From contig NZ_JASNNW010000011.1 of the NCBI RefSeq assembly GCF_030165005.1, forward strand, positions 62,001 to 126,000: 64,000 nt of DNA. The letters run 5' to 3'. The translations under genes and the position numbers were made by a program. A model generated the notes under the pieces. That model did not search any database, was not told the DNA's origin, and saw nothing but the letters and a program-made list of their open reading frames with translations. This stretch comes from Blastococcus capsensis. Its GTDB lineage: Bacteria; Actinomycetota; Actinomycetes; Mycobacteriales; Geodermatophilaceae. Of the stretch, positions 4,527-64,000 are shown one piece after another. Numbering within the stretch: the first letter of the stretch is position 1; each line of letters opens with the position of its first letter.

Positions 4527-7388
4527 CTACTCCCCCGTGCCCGGCGCGTTCCCCGTCGGCGGCGGGGGTTCCTGCGTGGGCTCCCCGGCCGGCGGCGGTT
4601 CCGGCGTCAGTTCCGCCGGGGGCTCCGGAGTGGGCTCCGCAGGTGGCGGAGGCCCGGGCGACGGCTCCGGAGCGGGCTCCGCAGGCGGCGGAGGCCCGGG
4701 CGACGGCTCCGGTGCCGGCCCCGGGGTCGGCTCCGCAGGCGGCGGAGGCTCAGGCGACGGCTCCGGGGTCGGCCCCGGGGTCGGCCCCGGGGTCGGCCCC
4801 GGGGTCGCCGGGGTCGGCTCCGCAGGCGGCGGAGGCCCGGGCGACGGCTCCGGTGCCGGCCCCGGAGTGGGCTCCGCAGGCGGCGGAGGCTCAGGCGACG
4901 GCTCCGGTGCCGGCCCCGGGGTCGGCTCCGCAGGCGGCGGAGGCTCAGGCGACGGCTCCGGGGTCGGCTCCGCAGGCGGCGGAGGCCCGGGCGACGGCTC
5001 CGGTGCCGGCTCCGCAGGCGGCGGAGGCGGCGGAGGCGGCGGAGGCGGCGGAGGCGGCGGAGGCGGCGGAGGCGGCGGAGGCGGCGGAGGCGGCGGAGGC
5101 GGCGGAGGCGGCGGCGGCGCCCAACGCGCACCGTTGCTGACCAGCACCGTGACGGGATCGCTCTGCTGCACGAGGCTGCCGGGCCCCGGCTGGACCCCGA
5201 GGACGACGCCCGGCGGGCGGCCGCTGTCGACGCGGGCGAGCGTGGCGGTGAGATTCCGGGCACCGAGGATCCCGCGGCACCGGTCGGCGTCCTGCCCGGC
5301 GCAGCCCGCGGGCACGGTCGCCCGCGTGCCGTCCACGTACCGGACGTCGGCCGGCGGGAAGAGCACCGGAGCGCGGGCGCTCAGGATCGGCTGCATCGCG
5401 TCGTGCCAGATCTGCGCGGGCATGCCGCCGCCGAAGCCGCCGACGTCCCGGTTCTCGACCGGGTCGTAGACCATCACGCTGGCCGCGAGCTGCGGCGTGT
5501 AGCCGACGAACGTGACCGAATAGTTCATCTGCGTCGTCCCGGTCTTGCCGGCGATCTGGTGCCCGGGCACGTAGGCACGCTCACCGGTCTGGCCGGGGAA
5601 CCCGGGCTCGACGTCCTTGCGCAGTGCTCGGGTGAGGGTGTGCGCCAGCGCGGGGTCCACGACGTCGGCCTCGCACTGCGGGCCACCCAGCGGCTGGCCG
5701 TTCTCGCCGAGCAGCGGCTGCCCGTCGCGGTCGAGCACCCGGACGATCGGGGTCGGCGCACACCGCGTGCCGCCGGCGGCCAGCGTCGCGTAGGCGTTGG
5801 CCAGGTGCAGCGGGCTGGTGGCCTCGGACCCGAAGGAGAACGAGCCGCGGTTCTGGGCGACGACCTCGTCCGCGATCGGGTCCAGGGAACGCAGCCCCAG
5901 CCGCTGGGCCATGCGCACCGGCGCCTCCACGCTGCCCAGCTGGTCCTGGAGCGCCAGGAAGTAGGTGTTCGAGGACATGTACAGCGCGCGCTCCATGTCC
6001 AGCGTGCGCGGGTAGCGGCTGGCGTTCTCCACGTCGTAGGGGCCGTCGCCGTCGCGGTAGACCGTCGACACGTAGGGATCGGAGGTGGTGATGCGGTGGT
6101 CCAGCCCGAAGCCCTGCTCCATCGCCGCGGCGGCGGTGAACACCTTGTACGTGGAGCCGGAACCCTGGCCGGCGGCGACGTTGAGGTTGACCGTCGTGTA
6201 GGCCGGATCGCCCGGGACGACGCCGAACTTCCGGTTGACCGACATGGCCAGCACGCGGCCGGTGCCCGGCTCGACGACGGTGTAGATGCCGGCGCGCGGA
6301 TCCTGGAGGCCCAGCGTCTTCACCACCGCGGCGTCCCCGGCCCGTTGGATGGCCGGGTCCAGCGTCGTCTCGATGGTCAGCCCACCCGTCTCGAGCTCCG
6401 CCTCGCTCAGGCCGAGGGTGCCGGTGAGGTGGTCCAGGGCGTAGTCGCAGAAGAAGCCGCCGATCAGCGCCTCCCGGCAGCCGCGCGGCGGGGGCTGGCC
6501 GGGGGTGACCACGACCGGGGTGGCGCGGGCCGCATCGGCCGCGGCCTGGTCCACCATGCCCAGCTCCGCCATCCGCGCCAGGACGACGTCGCGCCGCTCG
6601 GTGGCGCGTTCGGCGTTGACGAACGGGTCGTACCGGGTGGGGCTCTGCACGAGGCCGGCGAGCGTGGCGGCCTGCGCGAGGGTGAGGGCGTCCGGCGTCG
6701 TCCCGAAGTAGGTGGAGGCCGCGGCGGCCACCCCGTACGCGCCGGCGCCGAAGTACACCCGGTTGAGGTAGCGGGTGAGGATCTCGTCCTTGGAGTACTG
6801 CTGCTCCAGGGCGAGAGCCAGCTGTGCCTCGCGGAGTTTGCGGCCGAGGCTCTCGTCGGTGGCGGCCTCGCGGGCGTCGGGATCGGTGGCCGTCTGCAGC
6901 CGGATCTGCTTGATGAGCTGCTGGGTGATCGTGGAGCCGCCCTGCACCACCTCGCCGGCCGAGAGGTTGGTCAGGAACGCGCGGGCCAGCCCCCTGCCGT
7001 CGACCCCGCTGTGGTCGAAGAAGCGGCTGTCCTCGATGGCGATGAGGGCGTCCTTCACCACCGGCGCGATGGCCTCGCCGGGCACCGGGGTGCGGTTGCG
7101 CCGGTAGAGCTCGGCGATCAGTGAACCGTCGGCGGCGAGGATGCGGGTGTTGCCGGCCGGCGTGAGGTCGAGCAGGTCGGCGCTGACCGGGCGCAGCAGA
7201 CCGGCGCCGGCGTTGGTCGCCATCGATGCGCCGCCCACGAGCGGCAGGGCCAGCCCCGCGAGCAGCGCACCGGCGAGCACCACGGCCAGGGCCAGCTCCA
7301 GCACCGCGCCACCGCGGCGCACCGGCCTGCGCGGCGCCTCCTCGACCCCCGGGAGCGGCAGTCCGTCGATGGAGGGACGGGGCGACAC
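4527..7388 (-). CDS. Class A penicillin-binding protein (transglycosylase/transpeptidase) with PASTA domain and long proline tail
   Basis: Peptidoglycan synthase of about 953 residues. A cytoplasmic tail and one TM helix (about 30-55) precede a GT51 glycosyltransferase domain (EDSRFFDHSGVDGRG near 118, then GGSTITQQL). The transpeptidase domain carries GSTYK (active Ser about 412), SSN and KTGT (Lys about 615). One PASTA domain follows (about 683-753). The last 200 residues are very unusual: 34 consecutive prolines, then repeats of the type PAEPTPEPSPEPPPP. The proline run is encoded by an 11-fold 9-bp repeat at 5016-5117. GTG at 7388 is chosen because GAGGAGACCC lies just before it; the open frame extends further upstream but that stretch looks non-coding. 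Confidence 0.93.
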   Translation of the reverse strand: MSPRPSIDGLPLPGVEEAPRRPVRRGGAVLELALAVVLAGALLAGLALPLVGGASMATNAGAGLLRPVSADLLDLTPAGNTRILAADGSLIAELYRRNRTPVPGEAIAPVVKDALIAIEDSRFFDHSGVDGRGLARAFLTNLSAGEVVQGGSTITQQLIKQIRLQTATDPDAREAATDESLGRKLREAQLALALEQQYSKDEILTRYLNRVYFGAGAYGVAAAASTYFGTTPDALTLAQAATLAGLVQSPTRYDPFVNAERATERRDVVLARMAELGMVDQAAADAARATPVVVTPGQPPPRGCREALIGGFFCDYALDHLTGTLGLSEAELETGGLTIETTLDPAIQRAGDAAVVKTLGLQDPRAGIYTVVEPGTGRVLAMSVNRKFGVVPGDPAYTTVNLNVAAGQGSGSTYKVFTAAAAMEQGFGLDHRITTSDPYVSTVYRDGDGPYDVENASRYPRTLDMERALYMSSNTYFLALQDQLGSVEAPVRMAQRLGLRSLDPIADEVVAQNRGSFSFGSEATSPLHLANAYATLAAGGTRCAPTPIVRVLDRDGQPLLGENGQPLGGPQCEADVVDPALAHTLTRALRKDVEPGFPGQTGERAYVPGHQIAGKTGTTQMNYSVTFVGYTPQLAASVMVYDPVENRDVGGFGGGMPAQIWHDAMQPILSARAPVLFPPADVRYVDGTRATVPAGCAGQDADRCRGILGARNLTATLARVDSGRPPGVVLGVQPGPGSLVQQSDPVTVLVSNGARWAPPPPPPPPPPPPPPPPPPPPPPPPPPPPPPPPPPAEPAPEPSPGPPPPAEPTPEPSPEPPPPAEPTPGPAPEPSPEPPPPAEPTPGPAPEPSPGPPPPAEPTPATPGPTPGPTPGPTPEPSPEPPPPAEPTPGPAPEPSPGPPPPAEPAPEPSPGPPPPAEPTPEPPAELTPEPPPAGEPTQEPPPPTGNAPGTGE
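5016..5117. repeat. 9-bp minisatellite encoding a 34-proline run
   Basis: An AGGCGGCGG unit (plus strand) is repeated about 11 times without interruption inside the penicillin-binding protein gene. On the coding strand it reads CCG CCG CCT, giving only proline. Such an exact tandem repeat is expected to change length by slippage. Each 9-bp change keeps the reading frame. Confidence 0.9.
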
Positions 7389-58839: not shown

Positions 58840-61197
58840 GTGCACCTGCCGCGCTCCGCCGCCGTTGTCCCCGACGTGGACCAGCGAGATCAGGACGCCG
58901 TCACGCGGCGGCGCCCCGGCCTCGCACTGTTCGTGACCATCGGCCTGGTCGCGCTGTTCGCCACCGGCATCGGGCCGCGCCCGGCCGGCGCGGCGTGGGA
59001 CCGGACGTACGACGTCGTCCTCTACAACCTGCCCTACCTCGCCGCCGCGGCGGCGTGCGTGCTCGCGACGCGCCGGGTGCGCACCGAGCGACTCCTCTGG
59101 GCCGCGCTCGCCGCCGCACTGACCCTCGGCGCGATAGGCAACGTGCTGCGCGTGCTCTCCGCCGGCCTGCAGGGCAACGAGCCGTCCTCCGCGCTCTCGC
59201 ACGTCGTCTCCTTCGCGGCCTACCTGCTCGTGTACGTGCCCCTCGTCGTGCTGATCCGCGCCCGGGTGCCGCGCTTCCACCCCAGCATGTGGCTCGACGG
59301 CGTCGTGGCCGCCCTCGGCAGCCTGTCCGCCGGGGTCGCCTTCCTGCTCGGCCCCCATCTCCGCACCGACCCCGGCGGGACACCGGTGGCCGCGGTCGAT
59401 CTCGTGGCACCGATCACGACGGTGCTGCTCATCGCCGTGCTCATGGCCGTCGGCGGCATCCTCGGCGTGCGCCTCGACCGCACCTTCGTGCTCCTCGGCG
59501 CGGGGCTGGCCGCCCTCTGTGCCTCGGACATCGTCCTGTTCGCCCTCAAGGTGCAGGGCACCTACGTCGACGGCGGCCCGCTCGAACTCGGCTGGCTGCT
59601 CTGCGTCGTCCTGACCGCCGCGGCCGCCGACGGCGCGGTCGAGCGGCCGGCCCCCGTCGACGACACCGATTCCCGCATCGGCTGGCGGCTGCTCGCCGTG
59701 CCGCTCGCCTGCCTCGTGGCCAGCCTCGTGGTGCTGAGCCCGGCGTGGTCCGAGCCGGTGCCCGACATCGCGCGCTGGCTCGCCCTCGGCTGCGTCCTGG
59801 CCGGCGTCGTCCGCATCGCCGTGACCTTCCGCGAGGTCCGCGGCTACAACCAGGTCAAGCTCGAGTCGCGGACCGACGAGCTGACCCGGCTCGCCAACCG
59901 CCGCGCGCTGCTCGAGCAGGCCCAGCGCGTCGTCACCTCGGCGACCCCGGAGCGGCCCGCCGCTCTCCTGATCCTCGACCTCGACGGGTTCAAGGAGATC
60001 AACGACAGCCTCGGCCACTCCGCCGGCGACGACCTGCTGCGCCAGATCGGCCCGCGGCTGCGCAGCTCGCTGCGAGCCGGGGACGTCCTGGCCCGGCTCG
60101 GCGGCGACGAGTTCGCCGTCCTGATGCCGGCCGCGGAGCCGGCCGAGGCACGCGCGCTCGCCGGGCGGCTGTGCGACCTGCTGCTCGCGCCGTTCACGGT
60201 GGCCGGCGTCCGGCTGCACGTCGGCGTCAGCATCGGCGTCGCCACCACGCCGGCACCGGCGACGACCGTCGAGGAGCTGCTGCACTGCTCCGACGTCGCC
60301 ATGTACAGCGCCAAACGCGCCCGCGAAGGCGTGCACGTCTACGTGCCCGACCCCGTCACCGGCACCTCCGGCAGCGACCGGCTGCGCACCATGGAGGAGC
60401 TGCGGACGGCGCTGGACGGGGACGAGCTGCGGGTCTACCTCCAGCCCCAGGTGGACATGCACGACGGCCGCATCGTGGGCGCCGAGGCGCTGGTCCGGTG
60501 GGACCACCCCACCCGGGGCCTGCTCATGCCCGGCTCCCTGCTCCCCGCGGCCGAGCAGGCCGGGTTGCTGCGGCCGCTGACCGACCGGGTGCTCGAACTG
60601 GCGCTCGCGGCGGCCGCCCGCTGGTGGCCCGAGCGCGAGGTGCCGGTGTCGGTCAACCTGTCGGCGGCGAACGTCACCGATCTCGACCTCGCCGGCAAGG
60701 TGGCCGCCGCGCTGCACCGGCACGGCCTACCCGCGCGGGCGCTCACGCTGGAGGTCGTCGAGGACACCCTCATGGCCGATCCCGAGCGCGGCCGCACGGT
60801 GCTCGCCGACCTGCGCGCCTCCGGCGTCCGCACGTCGATCGACGACTACGGCACGGGGTACAGCTCGCTGGCCTACCTGCGGCACCTGCCGGCCGACGAG
60901 CTGAAGCTCGATCGCAGCCTGACCGCCGACGTCGACCGCGATCCCCGGGCGGCCGCCATCGTGCAGAGCACCGTCGCGCTCGCCCACGCCCTGGGCCTGA
61001 GCCTGGTGGCCGAAGGGGTCGAGACCCTGGCGACCAGCACCACGCTCGCCCGCCTCGGCTGCGACGTCGCCCAGGGGTACGCCATCGCCCGCCCCATGCC
61101 GGTCGACGACTTCCTGCGCTGGCTGGCTGCCTGGGACTCGGGGCTGGTCGATGAATCGTTGATCCCCCAGTTGAGCCAGCGCCCGGTCGCCGACTGA
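58840..61197 (+). CDS. Membrane-bound GGDEF-EAL protein (cyclic-di-GMP synthesis/degradation)
   Basis: 785 residues. About eight TM helices (residues 25-330) form a sensor-like domain. The GGDEF domain has LDLDGFKEINDS, the product-binding RAGD five residues ahead, and RLGGDEFAVL (about 421). The EAL domain keeps the catalytic set: AEALVRW (about 548), SVNLSAANV, LEVVEDTL, SIDDYGTGYSSL, KLDRSL, VAEGVET and QGYAIARPMP. So both diguanylate cyclase and phosphodiesterase activities look possible. Start GTG 58840. It may tie matrix production to a membrane signal; this link is inference. Confidence 0.93.
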   Translation: MHLPRSAAVVPDVDQRDQDAVTRRRPGLALFVTIGLVALFATGIGPRPAGAAWDRTYDVVLYNLPYLAAAAACVLATRRVRTERLLWAALAAALTLGAIGNVLRVLSAGLQGNEPSSALSHVVSFAAYLLVYVPLVVLIRARVPRFHPSMWLDGVVAALGSLSAGVAFLLGPHLRTDPGGTPVAAVDLVAPITTVLLIAVLMAVGGILGVRLDRTFVLLGAGLAALCASDIVLFALKVQGTYVDGGPLELGWLLCVVLTAAAADGAVERPAPVDDTDSRIGWRLLAVPLACLVASLVVLSPAWSEPVPDIARWLALGCVLAGVVRIAVTFREVRGYNQVKLESRTDELTRLANRRALLEQAQRVVTSATPERPAALLILDLDGFKEINDSLGHSAGDDLLRQIGPRLRSSLRAGDVLARLGGDEFAVLMPAAEPAEARALAGRLCDLLLAPFTVAGVRLHVGVSIGVATTPAPATTVEELLHCSDVAMYSAKRAREGVHVYVPDPVTGTSGSDRLRTMEELRTALDGDELRVYLQPQVDMHDGRIVGAEALVRWDHPTRGLLMPGSLLPAAEQAGLLRPLTDRVLELALAAAARWWPEREVPVSVNLSAANVTDLDLAGKVAAALHRHGLPARALTLEVVEDTLMADPERGRTVLADLRASGVRTSIDDYGTGYSSLAYLRHLPADELKLDRSLTADVDRDPRAAAIVQSTVALAHALGLSLVAEGVETLATSTTLARLGCDVAQGYAIARPMPVDDFLRWLAAWDSGLVDESLIPQLSQRPVAD

Positions 61198-61273: not shown

Positions 61274-61663
61274 GTGACGCCGTCCTCACCCTCCCGGGAA
61301 CTGGTTCACCGCCCCGTCGCCTGGCGCGACCTCGCGCCGGAGATCGTCCGGCAGCGACTGGTGATCGAGGGTGTGCCGGCCCGGCCCGTGGACGACGCGC
61401 AGATCCGGGCGTACCTCTCGGCGCTCTCGGGCGAGGTGGACATGGTGCAGCTCCTCGAGCCGGTGACCCACCGCTCCGACCTGTACGGCTGGGCCGGCTG
61501 GATCCACTGGGAGACGTCGGGGGCGCACTTCTACGCCTGGGAGCAGCCGCGGCTGTTCTTCTCGGTGGACATCTACACCTGCAAGGCGTTCGACCCGGAC
61601 GTCGCCGTGGCGTTCACCGTCGACTTCTTCACCGCCCGCACCGTCGTCGCGAAATCCTTCTGA
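61274..61663 (+). CDS. Divergent S-adenosylmethionine decarboxylase-like (SpeD-fold) protein
   Basis: 129 residues. The C-terminal half matches the SpeD core: GAHFYAWEQPRLFFSVDIYT then CKAFDPDVAVAF; the Cys corresponds to the catalytic Cys of the family (VDIFTC). In SpeD the chain self-cleaves at Glu-Ser-His to make a pyruvoyl group. Here the matching stretch reads ETSGAHFY, so the Ser may be kept, but the preceding Glu and the following His are not in the standard places. Activity as an AdoMet decarboxylase is therefore doubtful. Only one base separates its TGA from the next ATG. Start GTG 61274 (GGGCGA upstream); GTG 61247 is possible. Confidence 0.65.
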   Translation: MTPSSPSRELVHRPVAWRDLAPEIVRQRLVIEGVPARPVDDAQIRAYLSALSGEVDMVQLLEPVTHRSDLYGWAGWIHWETSGAHFYAWEQPRLFFSVDIYTCKAFDPDVAVAFTVDFFTARTVVAKSF

Positions 61664-61664
61664 C

Positions 61665-62459
61665 ATGGCTCTCCGGCTGCTCGTGGCGCACTCCCCCGAG
61701 GAGCGGGACGCCGCACGACGGGTCGAGGCTCGGGTCTTCCTGCAGGCGTTCGGCAACACGCCCGAGGTCATGGAGCAGGAGTACGGGCCGTACGAGGCAC
61801 GGTCGCGGTTCGTGGTGGTGATCGACGACGGGAGCGGAGCCGCCCTGGGCACCGCACGGCTGATCGTCGCCGCCGGGACCCCGGTGAAGACCCTGGTCGA
61901 CGTGGCGGGTGAGCCGTGGCACCTGCAGGTGGCCGACCGCCTGGGAGCGGCCGGCCTCGCCCCCTGGGACGTGTGGGACGTGGCGAGCCTGGCCGTGGAC
62001 CCCCGCTACCGCGCCGGCGCAGCGGGTGCCGAGCTCAGCGTGGCCCTGTGCCACGGCCTCTGGCGGTACGCCCGCAACTGCGACGTCCCCGGCCTGGTCA
62101 CCATCGTCGACGACCGGGTGCGCCGGTTGCTGCGCGCGATGGGCGTGCCCTGGTACCCGATGACGGGGGCGGCGTCCCGGCCGTACCTGGGCTCGCCCGC
62201 CAGCACCCCGTGCGTCCTCGTCGCGCAGACGGCGGAGGAGAAGATGTCCCGGGCACGCCCGGACCTCGCGCCGGCCCTGGTCCACGGGCGGTTCCGGTCG
62301 ATCACCGTCGACCCGGCCGACCTGGCGCCGAGCCGCGGCGCCGTCGTACAGCAGGCCGCACCGGCCGACCGGCCGCTGCCACCCCGCCGCGACACCACGG
62401 GGTGGCGACCGCCGGCGTCCCGCCGCGAGAGCGCGTCCGCGAACCCGCCCGTCGCGTAG
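61665..62459 (+). CDS. LuxI/GNAT-like acyltransferase (possible autoinducer-synthase relative)
   Basis: 264 residues. The first 200 residues have the GNAT-like layout of acyl-homoserine lactone synthases and related acyltransferases: DAARRVEARVFLQAF, RSRFVVVIDDGSGAALGTAR with the Leu-Ile strand, WDVASLAVDPRYR and a later MGVPWYPMTG. The C-terminal 60 residues are a Pro/Arg-rich tail. LuxI enzymes join an acyl group to the amino group of AdoMet; whether this one uses AdoMet is unknown. It follows the SpeD-like gene after one base, so the two products probably work on related substrates. Confidence 0.65.
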   Translation: MALRLLVAHSPEERDAARRVEARVFLQAFGNTPEVMEQEYGPYEARSRFVVVIDDGSGAALGTARLIVAAGTPVKTLVDVAGEPWHLQVADRLGAAGLAPWDVWDVASLAVDPRYRAGAAGAELSVALCHGLWRYARNCDVPGLVTIVDDRVRRLLRAMGVPWYPMTGAASRPYLGSPASTPCVLVAQTAEEKMSRARPDLAPALVHGRFRSITVDPADLAPSRGAVVQQAAPADRPLPPRRDTTGWRPPASRRESASANPPVA

Positions 62460-62692: not shown

Positions 62693-62956
62693 ATGGGTCT
62701 CAACATCAAGAACCCGGAAACCGAGGAGCTCGCCCGCCAACTCGCCGACGCAACCGGCGAGAACCTCACGCGGGCCATCACCGTGGCGGTGCGCGAACGT
62801 CTCGATCGGGTTCGGCGCCGGGGCTCCGCCGCGGCATCCGATCGCACCGCCCTGCTCCAGAGGATCGCCGGGGACGCAGCCGATCGGTGGGTCGAGCCCT
62901 ATCGCAGTAGCGACCACGGCGACCTCCTCTACGACGAGACAGGCCTGCCCCGATGA
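62693..62956 (+). CDS. vapB: VapB-type antitoxin (Rv0623-like)
   Basis: 87 residues. It opens [20 protein letters not shown], typical of the VapB family antitoxins that pair with PIN-domain toxins, with a C-terminal toxin-binding tail ([20 protein letters not shown]). It overlaps the toxin gene by 4 bp, and should repress the operon. Confidence 0.88.
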
Positions 62957-63363
62957 TCGTCGACACGTCTGCTCTCATCGCGATCCTGCGCGGAGAACCG
63001 GACGCCGATCGCTACATCCAGGCGCTGGCCACCGCAGACGAGGCTCGCACCTCGGCCGCGACCTACCTGGAGACCGCCGTCGTGGTGGACGCCAACCGTG
63101 ACCCGGTGCTCAGCGGCCGCTTCGACGACCTCCTGGCCGCGGTGCCCGTTACCGTCGAACCGGTCACGCGGTCGCAGGCGGACATCGCCCGCCGGGCCTA
63201 CCGCGACTTCGGCAAGGGCAGCGGCCATCCCGCCCGCTTGAACTTCGGTGACTGCTTCACCTATGCGCTGGCCCGCGCCACCGGTGAACCACTGCTCTTC
63301 AAGGGCACCGGCTTCTCGGCGACCGATGTCACCCCGGCCCTCGATCCGGTGGATCCTGCCTGA
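62953..63363 (+). CDS. vapC: VapC-type PIN-domain ribonuclease toxin
   Basis: 136 residues of the PIN fold. The acidic residues are in [12 protein letters not shown] (Asp4), [10 protein letters not shown] (Glu), and [12 protein letters not shown] (Asp), as required for metal-dependent RNase activity. It pairs with the upstream antitoxin and is expected to cleave RNA when free. The start ATGA overlaps the antitoxin stop. Confidence 0.9.
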
Positions 63364-63495: not shown

Positions 63496-63762
63496 ATGGC
63501 CACCAACCTGCGGTTGAGCGACGCGGCAGCGAAGGCCCTGCGCCAGGCCGCGGCGGCCACTGGGCGGCCGCAGCAGCAACTCATCCGCGAGGCCCTCGAC
63601 CGGTACCTCGGCCTGGAGCCCGGCGAATCGGATCGTGCACGCGCCCGTGCGGCCGGATCGGTCCGACCCGGCACGCCGTTCCGTGACGTGGCGCCCACGG
63701 TGCACCTGCCACCGGGCGCGACCACCCGAGACCTGCTCGAGCCCGACGCCGACCCCCGGTGA
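63496..63762 (+). CDS. Ribbon-helix-helix-type antitoxin
   Basis: 88 residues starting MATNLRLSDAAAKALRQAAA then QQQLIREALDRYLGL, a ribbon-helix-helix DNA-binding domain. The C-terminal part (PFRDVAPTVHLPPGATTRDL) would bind the toxin. It overlaps the next PIN gene by GTGA. This is a different antitoxin type from the one just upstream. Confidence 0.85.
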   Translation: MATNLRLSDAAAKALRQAAAATGRPQQQLIREALDRYLGLEPGESDRARARAAGSVRPGTPFRDVAPTVHLPPGATTRDLLEPDADPR

Positions 63763-64000
63763 TCGTCTACCTCGACACCAGCGCCCTGCTCAAGCGGGTC
63801 ATCGTCGAGCCAGAGTCGGCAGCTGTACGGGCACTGCTCAGCCGGTTGTCGGCAGCCGGCGATCTGCTCACCTCCTCGGCGCTCACCTGGATGGAGGTCG
63901 AACGCGCTCTGCGCCGCGCCGACGTTCCCGACCTCGGCCGGCTGACCGAAGCCGCTCTCTCCGGTATCGACGAGTTCCCGCTGCGACCCGTCGTCCTCGA
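63759..64000 (+). CDS. VapC-type PIN-domain toxin (partial, cut by window end)
   Basis: GTG 63759 overlaps the antitoxin stop. The visible 80 residues show VIVYLDTSALLKRVIVEPES and the segment TSSALTWMEVERALRRAD, a PIN domain with its first acidic residues. The frame continues past the window. It is the toxin of the second VapBC pair. Confidence 0.85.
   Translation, partial: MIVYLDTSALLKRVIVEPESAAVRALLSRLSAAGDLLTSSALTWMEVERALRRADVPDLGRLTEAALSGIDEFPLRPVVL

Follow-up and report, generated by a model that had tools for sequence, protein, structure and literature searches.

What does a SpeD-like protein, related to the S-adenosylmethionine (AdoMet) decarboxylases, do when its gene ends one base before that of an acyltransferase and lies beside the gene for a membrane cyclic di-GMP (c-di-GMP) enzyme? 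The question is raised by a 64,000-nucleotide stretch of Blastococcus capsensis DNA (contig NZ_JASNNW010000011.1), hereafter the window, in which three genes follow one another on the plus strand. The most 5' of them (58840-61197) encodes a membrane GGDEF-EAL protein of 785 residues with a multi-transmembrane N-terminal part (Pfam GGDEF, E 2e-41; EAL, E 8.9e-70). The SpeD-like gene (61274-61663; Pfam AdoMet_dc) starts with GTG and encodes 129 residues, including a conserved core of about 113 residues from about 61322; its TGA stop is followed by a single base and then by the ATG of the third gene (61665-62459), which encodes a 264-residue GNAT acyltransferase that we describe as FeeM/LuxI-like by its predicted fold. 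An earlier note on this DNA, written from the sequence alone, had pointed out a SpeD-fold gene one base before an acyltransferase gene and beside GGDEF-EAL, and these open reading frames (ORFs) are confirmed. The closest named relatives of the SpeD-like protein come from Blastococcus (Geodermatophilaceae).

Linkage of the two genes across genomes

The SpeD-like and acyltransferase genes form a conserved unit, far beyond chance. The former is present in 27 of 112 genomes of the family and the latter in 28, namely the same 27 and G106 (hypergeometric P 4e-25). At all 28 family SpeD-like loci (27 genomes, one of which, G171, has two) the acyltransferase gene follows the SpeD-like gene, including a copy only 35% identical in G239 and a broken one in G169; the gap is a single base in 21 of the 27 loci compared, the broken G169 copy being left out. 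A class-level sample of 345 genomes contains the SpeD-like gene in 8, the acyltransferase gene in 10 and both in 7, and in all seven the two genes lie on the same strand less than 180 bases apart (P 9e-12). Since the genomes are related, both P values are too small. In the phylum sample (386 genomes), strong SpeD-like matches were found in the window genome (G000), G825, G736 and G817, and strong acyltransferase matches in the window genome and G825, adjacent to the SpeD-like gene in both; five weaker SpeD matches and four genomes with weaker acyltransferase matches represent more distant proteins. G736 has a diverged acyltransferase gene, separated from its SpeD-like gene by a GGDEF-EAL gene, which the phylum count overlooked and which was later detected at a weaker E of 7e-9, and G817 has no acyltransferase gene within 1.5 kb on either side of its SpeD-like gene. 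The acyltransferase counts in the family, class and phylum samples are lower bounds, as only some of the first-look candidates were scored.

A scan of named genomes with two peptide patterns, one of which includes Ser82, yielded 131 SpeD-like relatives, and the best 80 of the 131 loci were analysed. They come from Geodermatophilaceae, Micromonosporaceae, Cellulomonadaceae, Cryobacterium, Nocardioidaceae, Mycolicibacterium sphagni, Acidimicrobiia and others, and include nine metagenome-assembled genomes (MAGs) of Saccharibacteria or Patescibacteria. In 76 of the 80 loci an acyltransferase gene lies directly downstream of the SpeD-like gene, and of the four loci without a match one, L081, does carry an acyltransferase gene at this position, but a strongly diverged one (22.7 bits). 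By crude, ORF-based gene calls, with the search for starts beginning about 40 bases ahead of the SpeD-like stop, the first possible acyltransferase start lies at most 50 bases from that stop in 65 of the 76 loci and 81-172 bases from it in 7, with no start in the remaining 4. No fusion of the two genes occurs among the 80 loci. The co-occurrence check proposed in the earlier note thus finds the two genes to be a linked unit in relatives (27 of 28 family genomes; 76 of 80 loci), and the linkage in the family and class samples rejects the explanation that they are chance neighbours.

The possibilities of a plasmid or a phage gene were also considered and rejected: the acyltransferase has no plasmid match, the M. 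sphagni SpeD-like protein as query retrieved only three plasmid matches, at 33-35% identity, and the same query gave no phage match. In one Geodermatophilaceae genome the pair is broken by frame changes (L040 and L042; G169:C2:718218-719283), which reflects either decay or a sequencing error.

The two proteins

The SpeD-like protein is recognised by Pfam AdoMet_dc (PF02675) above the cut-off (E 6.5e-9, 36.5 against 25 bits), and falls below that of the NCBIfam SpeD equivalog SAM_DCase_Bsu (TIGR03330; 13.4 against 75.7 bits). Its predicted model (pLDDT 91) has the SpeD fold. Bacterial SpeDs take the first five places among its Foldseek matches, headed by 1tmi (E 8.5e-8), and the Thermotoga maritima class 1b AdoMet decarboxylase structures 1tlu, 1vr7 and 1tmi align over 105-106 residues with Z 14.2-14.3 (for 1vr7_B, Z 14.3 and a root-mean-square deviation of 2.5 over 106 residues). 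With T. maritima SpeD the protein shares, by alignment, the core of about 113 residues and the counterparts of Ser63 and Cys83. The pyruvoyl-forming Ser63 corresponds to Ser82 (codon 61517-61519), whereas the processing His68 is replaced by Tyr87 (codon 61532-61534). Altogether S55, E62, H64 and H68 of T. maritima SpeD become A, T, G and Y, which bears out the altered cleavage site suggested in the earlier note. S63, H68 and C83 are essential for self-processing of T. maritima SpeD, and H68 is needed for catalysis as well (PMC10407285). Unlike SpeD and the neofunctionalised SpeDA and SpeDC proteins described in that paper, the window protein has Tyr for His68, Gly for His64 and Ala for Ser55, a DLAPxIxRQRL N-terminus, and a gene partner that is an acyltransferase rather than polyamine genes.

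In the clade, E32, H78, W79, E80, S82, G83, H85, Y87 and C103, among others, are invariant in the 73 rows of alignment A2 (of 81 possible, near-duplicates dropped; alignment A1 omits L020, L033, L040 and L042), although the invariance of Ser82 is partly by construction, as one search pattern contains it; Cys103 lies outside both patterns. Pattern-free profile searches brought up relatives with an altered motif (WAAWVHW, WENSGAHFY) in which S, G, H, Y and C are nonetheless retained. The Tyr at the H68 position, invariant in A2, is likewise found in all 31 clade rows of the tree set, including six further relatives, and S63, G64, Y68 and C83 are kept both in G354 and G817 and in the plasmid relatives of Nostoc, Acaryochloris and Halioglobus, which are 33-35% identical to the M. 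sphagni protein. Three of the weaker phylum-scan matches (L165, L166 and L169) keep H68 and group with T. maritima across a 100/99 split with long branches. PDB sequence searches with the SpeD-like protein or its profile found no SpeD, and pairwise hhalign against T. maritima SpeD gave a probability of 2.6%, so that the residue alignment rests on the agreement between Pfam, the clade alignment and the fold matches. From this alignment, the clade appears to keep the nucleophile and the cysteine with the histidine changed, and its members would be either processed by another route or unprocessed; the loss of the processing histidine leaves room for an active as well as an inactive protein. A spermidine-synthase-like gene is present in the window's own genome. 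The Pfam family search of that genome overlooked even the SpeD-like gene of the window, so the absence of a canonical SpeD does not follow from it. On Acaryochloris marina plasmid pREC2 (L148), a distant Tyr68-type SpeD relative (5998-6354) lies directly behind an annotated GNAT family N-acetyltransferase gene (4905-5957); a GNAT gene beside a SpeD relative is thus seen once outside Actinomycetota and Patescibacteria, and no such gene is annotated next to the Nostoc relative (L147).

The acyltransferase falls below all three relevant profile cut-offs: FeeM (PF21926; 18.8 against 27 bits), Autoind_synth (PF00765; 13.9 against 24 bits) and TIGR03694 of the exosortase-associated acyltransferases (24.3 against 112 bits). 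In structure searches with its predicted model (pLDDT 92.8), the N-acyl amino acid synthase FeeM (2g0b) ranks first both times (E 2.4e-7; Z 17.3 over 175 residues), followed among LuxI-type folds by LasI (Z 15.7, 182 residues aligned), BjaI (15.5) and TofI (15.3). Some plain GNAT proteins score as high as LasI, and one of them, SACOL1063, is tied with FeeM (Z 17.0 over 142 residues), and the fold alone therefore does not fix the substrate. Despite its weak matches to FeeM and TIGR03694, the protein is set apart from those families by missing both curated cut-offs and by the linkage of its gene to that of a SpeD-like protein and, in many cases, of a membrane signalling protein. The identification as an N-terminal acetyltransferase, which the earlier note had held up as the opposing outcome, is made less likely by the lower fold score of RimI (2cnm, Z 12.8 against 17.3 for FeeM).

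The earlier note had also proposed an alignment with LuxI for the conserved Arg, Phe and Trp residues. Alignments with LasI place E, F, N, G, E, R, D and S at the LuxI hallmarks R25, F29, W35, D46, D49, R70, E101 and R104, positions that we chose among the conserved residues listed in PMC5539150 and transferred from LasI to LuxI numbering ourselves. Two of the eight are kept (F25 and R65, the counterparts of F29 and R70), two are conservative (E44 and D105) and four are lost (E21, N31, G41 and S108), so that one of the arginines and the phenylalanine hold, and R25, R104 and W35 do not. E44 and G67 of the same list are also kept (E39 and G62). Within the clade, E21, F25, N31, E39, Y40, D54, R65, K75, D149, Y174 and L175 are invariant (alignment A3, 62 of 77 rows, near-duplicates and truncated rows dropped). 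With several hallmarks lost, the protein is unlikely to be an acyl-homoserine lactone (AHL) synthase, and the AdoMet consumption by LuxI enzymes, from which the earlier note argued, cannot be assumed for it. A similar C-terminal tail around RRDTTGWRPPT (window 62380-62459), where model confidence is lower, is shared by many of the acyltransferases from Geodermatophilaceae.

Signalling neighbours, descent and possible transfer

A GGDEF-EAL gene precedes the pair at 26 of the 28 family SpeD-like loci, the exceptions being L038, at the end of a short contig, and G239 (L039). Among the 80 named loci, GGDEF-EAL is found at 21 of the 22 from Geodermatophilaceae and at 19 of the 58 from other groups, and a sensor histidine kinase at 10 of these 58, namely the nine Saccharibacteria/Patescibacteria loci and M. 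sphagni. The kinase frame starts at most 60 bases from the acyltransferase gene in M. sphagni and in eight of those nine loci (L081 lies outside that list); the M. sphagni kinase comprises HisKA_7TM, GAF, HisKA and HATPase domains, and in Saccharibacteria a response regulator gene lies upstream of the pair on the opposite strand. A scan of 45 downstream genes (44 of the 49 listed and one picked by hand, L071) gave EAL in 15, HisKA in 8 and HisKA_7TM in 5, and response regulators were found in 9 of the 47 upstream genes scanned (54 listed). In one Saccharibacteria MAG (L084:7171-11630) the pair is followed by a tandem of two sensor kinase genes that belong to the same family.

The GGDEF-EAL protein of the window is a possible sensor and output partner of the pair. 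Of the 27 pair-bearing genomes, 25 contain matches to its N-terminal part at 59% identity or more, 26 such places in all (two in G171, with its two pairs); paralogues elsewhere reach at most 58%, a narrow break, and some match exists in 77 of the 112 family genomes. Acyltransferase genes that lack a SpeD-like neighbour mostly keep GGDEF-EAL: it is retained in G262, G468 and G398 (at a contig edge), though not in G106, and is present within 1.5 kb at nine of the ten acyltransferase loci of family f2, from the same order, possibly Nakamurellaceae. In three f2 genomes the SpeD-like gene lies 2.4-2.7 kb from the acyltransferase gene, on the same strand and, as read from coordinates, divergent from the intervening GGDEF-EAL gene. 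In view of these loci and the identity of the pair-linked GGDEF-EAL proteins, the older couple in actinobacteria may be that of acyltransferase and membrane c-di-GMP enzyme, frequently joined by the SpeD-like gene as a third member. The N-terminal parts of the GGDEF-EAL proteins from Geodermatophilaceae and from 13 other loci are related (hhalign probability 97%, E 2e-11). A single receptor domain common to all partners was rejected, as neither GGDEF-EAL set is related to the membrane part of the kinases.

The two genes of the pair have a common history and unequal conservation. Mean identity is 66% for the SpeD-like core versus 34% for the acyltransferase (50 pairs), a difference inflated by the choice of loci by SpeD similarity; it fits one fixed head group with varying acyl chains, and also a small, tightly constrained subunit. 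Pairwise distances of the two proteins correlate (r 0.88 for 71 pairs, five truncated pairs of the 76 being dropped; 0.85 for 50 pairs), which shows common descent and not contact. The two genes were also placed in separate trees of moderate support, with 35 and 26 rows picked by us. In both, the Cryobacterium genes fall next to or inside the Saccharibacteria (99/93 and 93/85); M. sphagni clusters with a Saccharibacteria row in the SpeD tree (91/78) and stands beside that group in the acyltransferase tree (81/73). This suggests that the whole pair was transferred between actinobacteria and Saccharibacteria. The M. sphagni locus (L067, NZ_NOZR01000023.1), which carries the pair with a Saccharibacteria-type sensor kinase at 57% GC over 12 kb, is a candidate for horizontal gain.

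Proposed function, alternatives and flanking genes

We tentatively propose, at somewhat less than even confidence, that the pair is a dedicated two-protein unit for a small molecule made by N-acylation, in which the SpeD-like partner handles the amine and the neighbouring membrane protein reads the product. The proposal builds on the linkage, the predicted folds, the conserved residues and the observed change of partner, from which we infer N-acylation, amine handling and sensing. The acyltransferase, a distant FeeM/LuxI relative by fold, would join an acyl group to an amine, and the SpeD-like protein would act in this step or the one before; most likely it would decarboxylate the amine, or handle it in another way, by forming a pyruvoyl group or by using its conserved Ser and Cys residues. 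The linkage points to the adjacent membrane protein as the presumable reader of the product, GGDEF-EAL here and, in Saccharibacteria, a sensor histidine kinase. As Saccharibacteria for the most part lack fatty-acid synthesis, their acyl donor might come from a host. A wider version, which we consider unlikely, is a new class of bacterial signal: a Tyr68-type SpeD carrying a pyruvoyl group without the canonical histidine would make a constant amine head, the FeeM/LuxI-like enzyme would add a lineage-specific acyl chain, the product would be sensed by a c-di-GMP enzyme in free-living actinobacteria or by a kinase in Saccharibacteria, and the genes would have been exchanged between both groups.

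Several observations weigh against a dedicated signalling unit. No acyltransferase gene lies beside the SpeD-like gene at L085, L092 and L114, and none was found adjoining the solo copies L092, L114 (around 5995-6333), L135 and L136, which are second SpeD-like copies in pair-bearing genomes and share the motif variant FYGW/FSADIYTC. Conversely, the acyltransferase genes of G106, G262, G468 and G398, as well as all ten of f2, have no adjacent SpeD-like gene, and 7 of the 10 f2 genomes have no significant SpeD-like match anywhere in the genome. Residue H68, which serves both processing and catalysis in T. maritima, is Tyr in every aligned clade member, and S55 and H64 are also replaced. Finally, 29 of the 58 loci outside Geodermatophilaceae, 17 of them Micromonosporaceae by record titles, have neither GGDEF-EAL nor a kinase in the examined DNA, and the membrane parts of the kinases have no detectable relation by hhalign to those of either GGDEF-EAL set, so that no common receptor is shown. 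The signalling unit imagined in the earlier note accordingly agrees with many neighbourhoods, those with GGDEF-EAL or a kinase, and finds no counterpart at these 29 loci.

The main alternative, which we judge somewhat unlikely, is that the SpeD-like protein is never cleaved; as a pseudoenzyme subunit it would bind either the acyltransferase or a small ligand, for instance AdoMet, and would switch or shape the enzyme. The SpeD-fold N-terminal domain of human spermine synthase plays a comparable pseudoenzyme role, and spermine synthase N-domains rank next after the bacterial SpeDs among our structural matches (Z 10.2). The replacement of H68, S55 and H64 also speaks for an uncleaved subunit, as does the first Foldseek match, the non-processing S63A mutant 1tmi, although Z does not separate the T. 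maritima entries; strict co-inheritance and gene coupling fit a complex. However, the counterparts of S63 and C83, neither of which a pseudoenzyme needs, are kept clade-wide, and the paralogues L092, L114, L135 and L136 occur without an adjoining acyltransferase. The precedent is the trypanosome prozyme, a SpeD-fold pseudoenzyme which, as PMC5201418 and PMC6221367 describe, activates its partner; that partner is AdoMet decarboxylase, not an acyltransferase.

It is less probable still that the unit modifies a membrane lipid, metabolite or protein within the cell, for example by acylation of polyamines or an aminolipid, with GGDEF-EAL merely controlling it. The 29 loci without a signalling neighbour would suit such a role; against it, the partner switches between two classes of membrane signalling protein, and in Saccharibacteria the kinase lies within 60 bases behind the acyltransferase gene, with the response regulator upstream. 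The literal chemistry of the earlier note, a LuxI-type AHL synthase whose partner supplies decarboxylated AdoMet, is highly improbable: LasI (Z 15.7) and BjaI (15.5) do rank high among the structural matches, but R25, W35, D46 and R104 are replaced (E21, N31, G41 and S108), the Pfam cut-off is missed, and the SpeD-like protein differs from active AdoMet decarboxylases at H68.

We found no published description of the SpeD-like/acyltransferase pair in the open literature, a scope that leaves out most subscription journals and bioRxiv preprints. The main text of a 2026 review of AHL quorum sensing in Actinomycetota (PMC13136126) contains none of the terms decarboxylase, Geodermatophil-, Blastococcus, GGDEF, c-di-GMP and GNAT. 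The idea of an acyl-synthase-like gene adjoining a sensor kinase has been in print since 2020, when 18 LuxI homologues were reported beside sensory kinases in genomes of the Candidate Phyla Radiation (PMC7567580). Unlike the acyltransferases described here, those homologues are said in that paper to retain the important residues almost systematically; the word decarboxylase is absent from its main text. The proposed N-acylation unit, if real, would bring a partner of pyruvoyl type, or a pseudoenzyme partner, into the small group of acyl-signal synthases and provide a candidate signal common to actinobacteria and Saccharibacteria. It would also extend the roles recorded for the SpeD fold (decarboxylation of AdoMet, arginine and ornithine) to a clade that has lost a histidine regarded as essential. 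Being small, the pair lends itself to direct cloning and testing.

Directly 3' of the unit in the window, a small antitoxin-like ORF recognised by eye (62693-62956, plus strand) overlaps a PIN-domain gene (62953-63363, plus strand; Pfam 1.4e-18), and the two probably form a toxin-antitoxin pair. They are followed by a gene for a ribbon-helix-helix protein (63496-63762, plus strand; Pfam 4e-7) and an ORF that is PIN-like by eye and open at the window end (63759-64000, plus strand), probably a second toxin-antitoxin pair in tandem.
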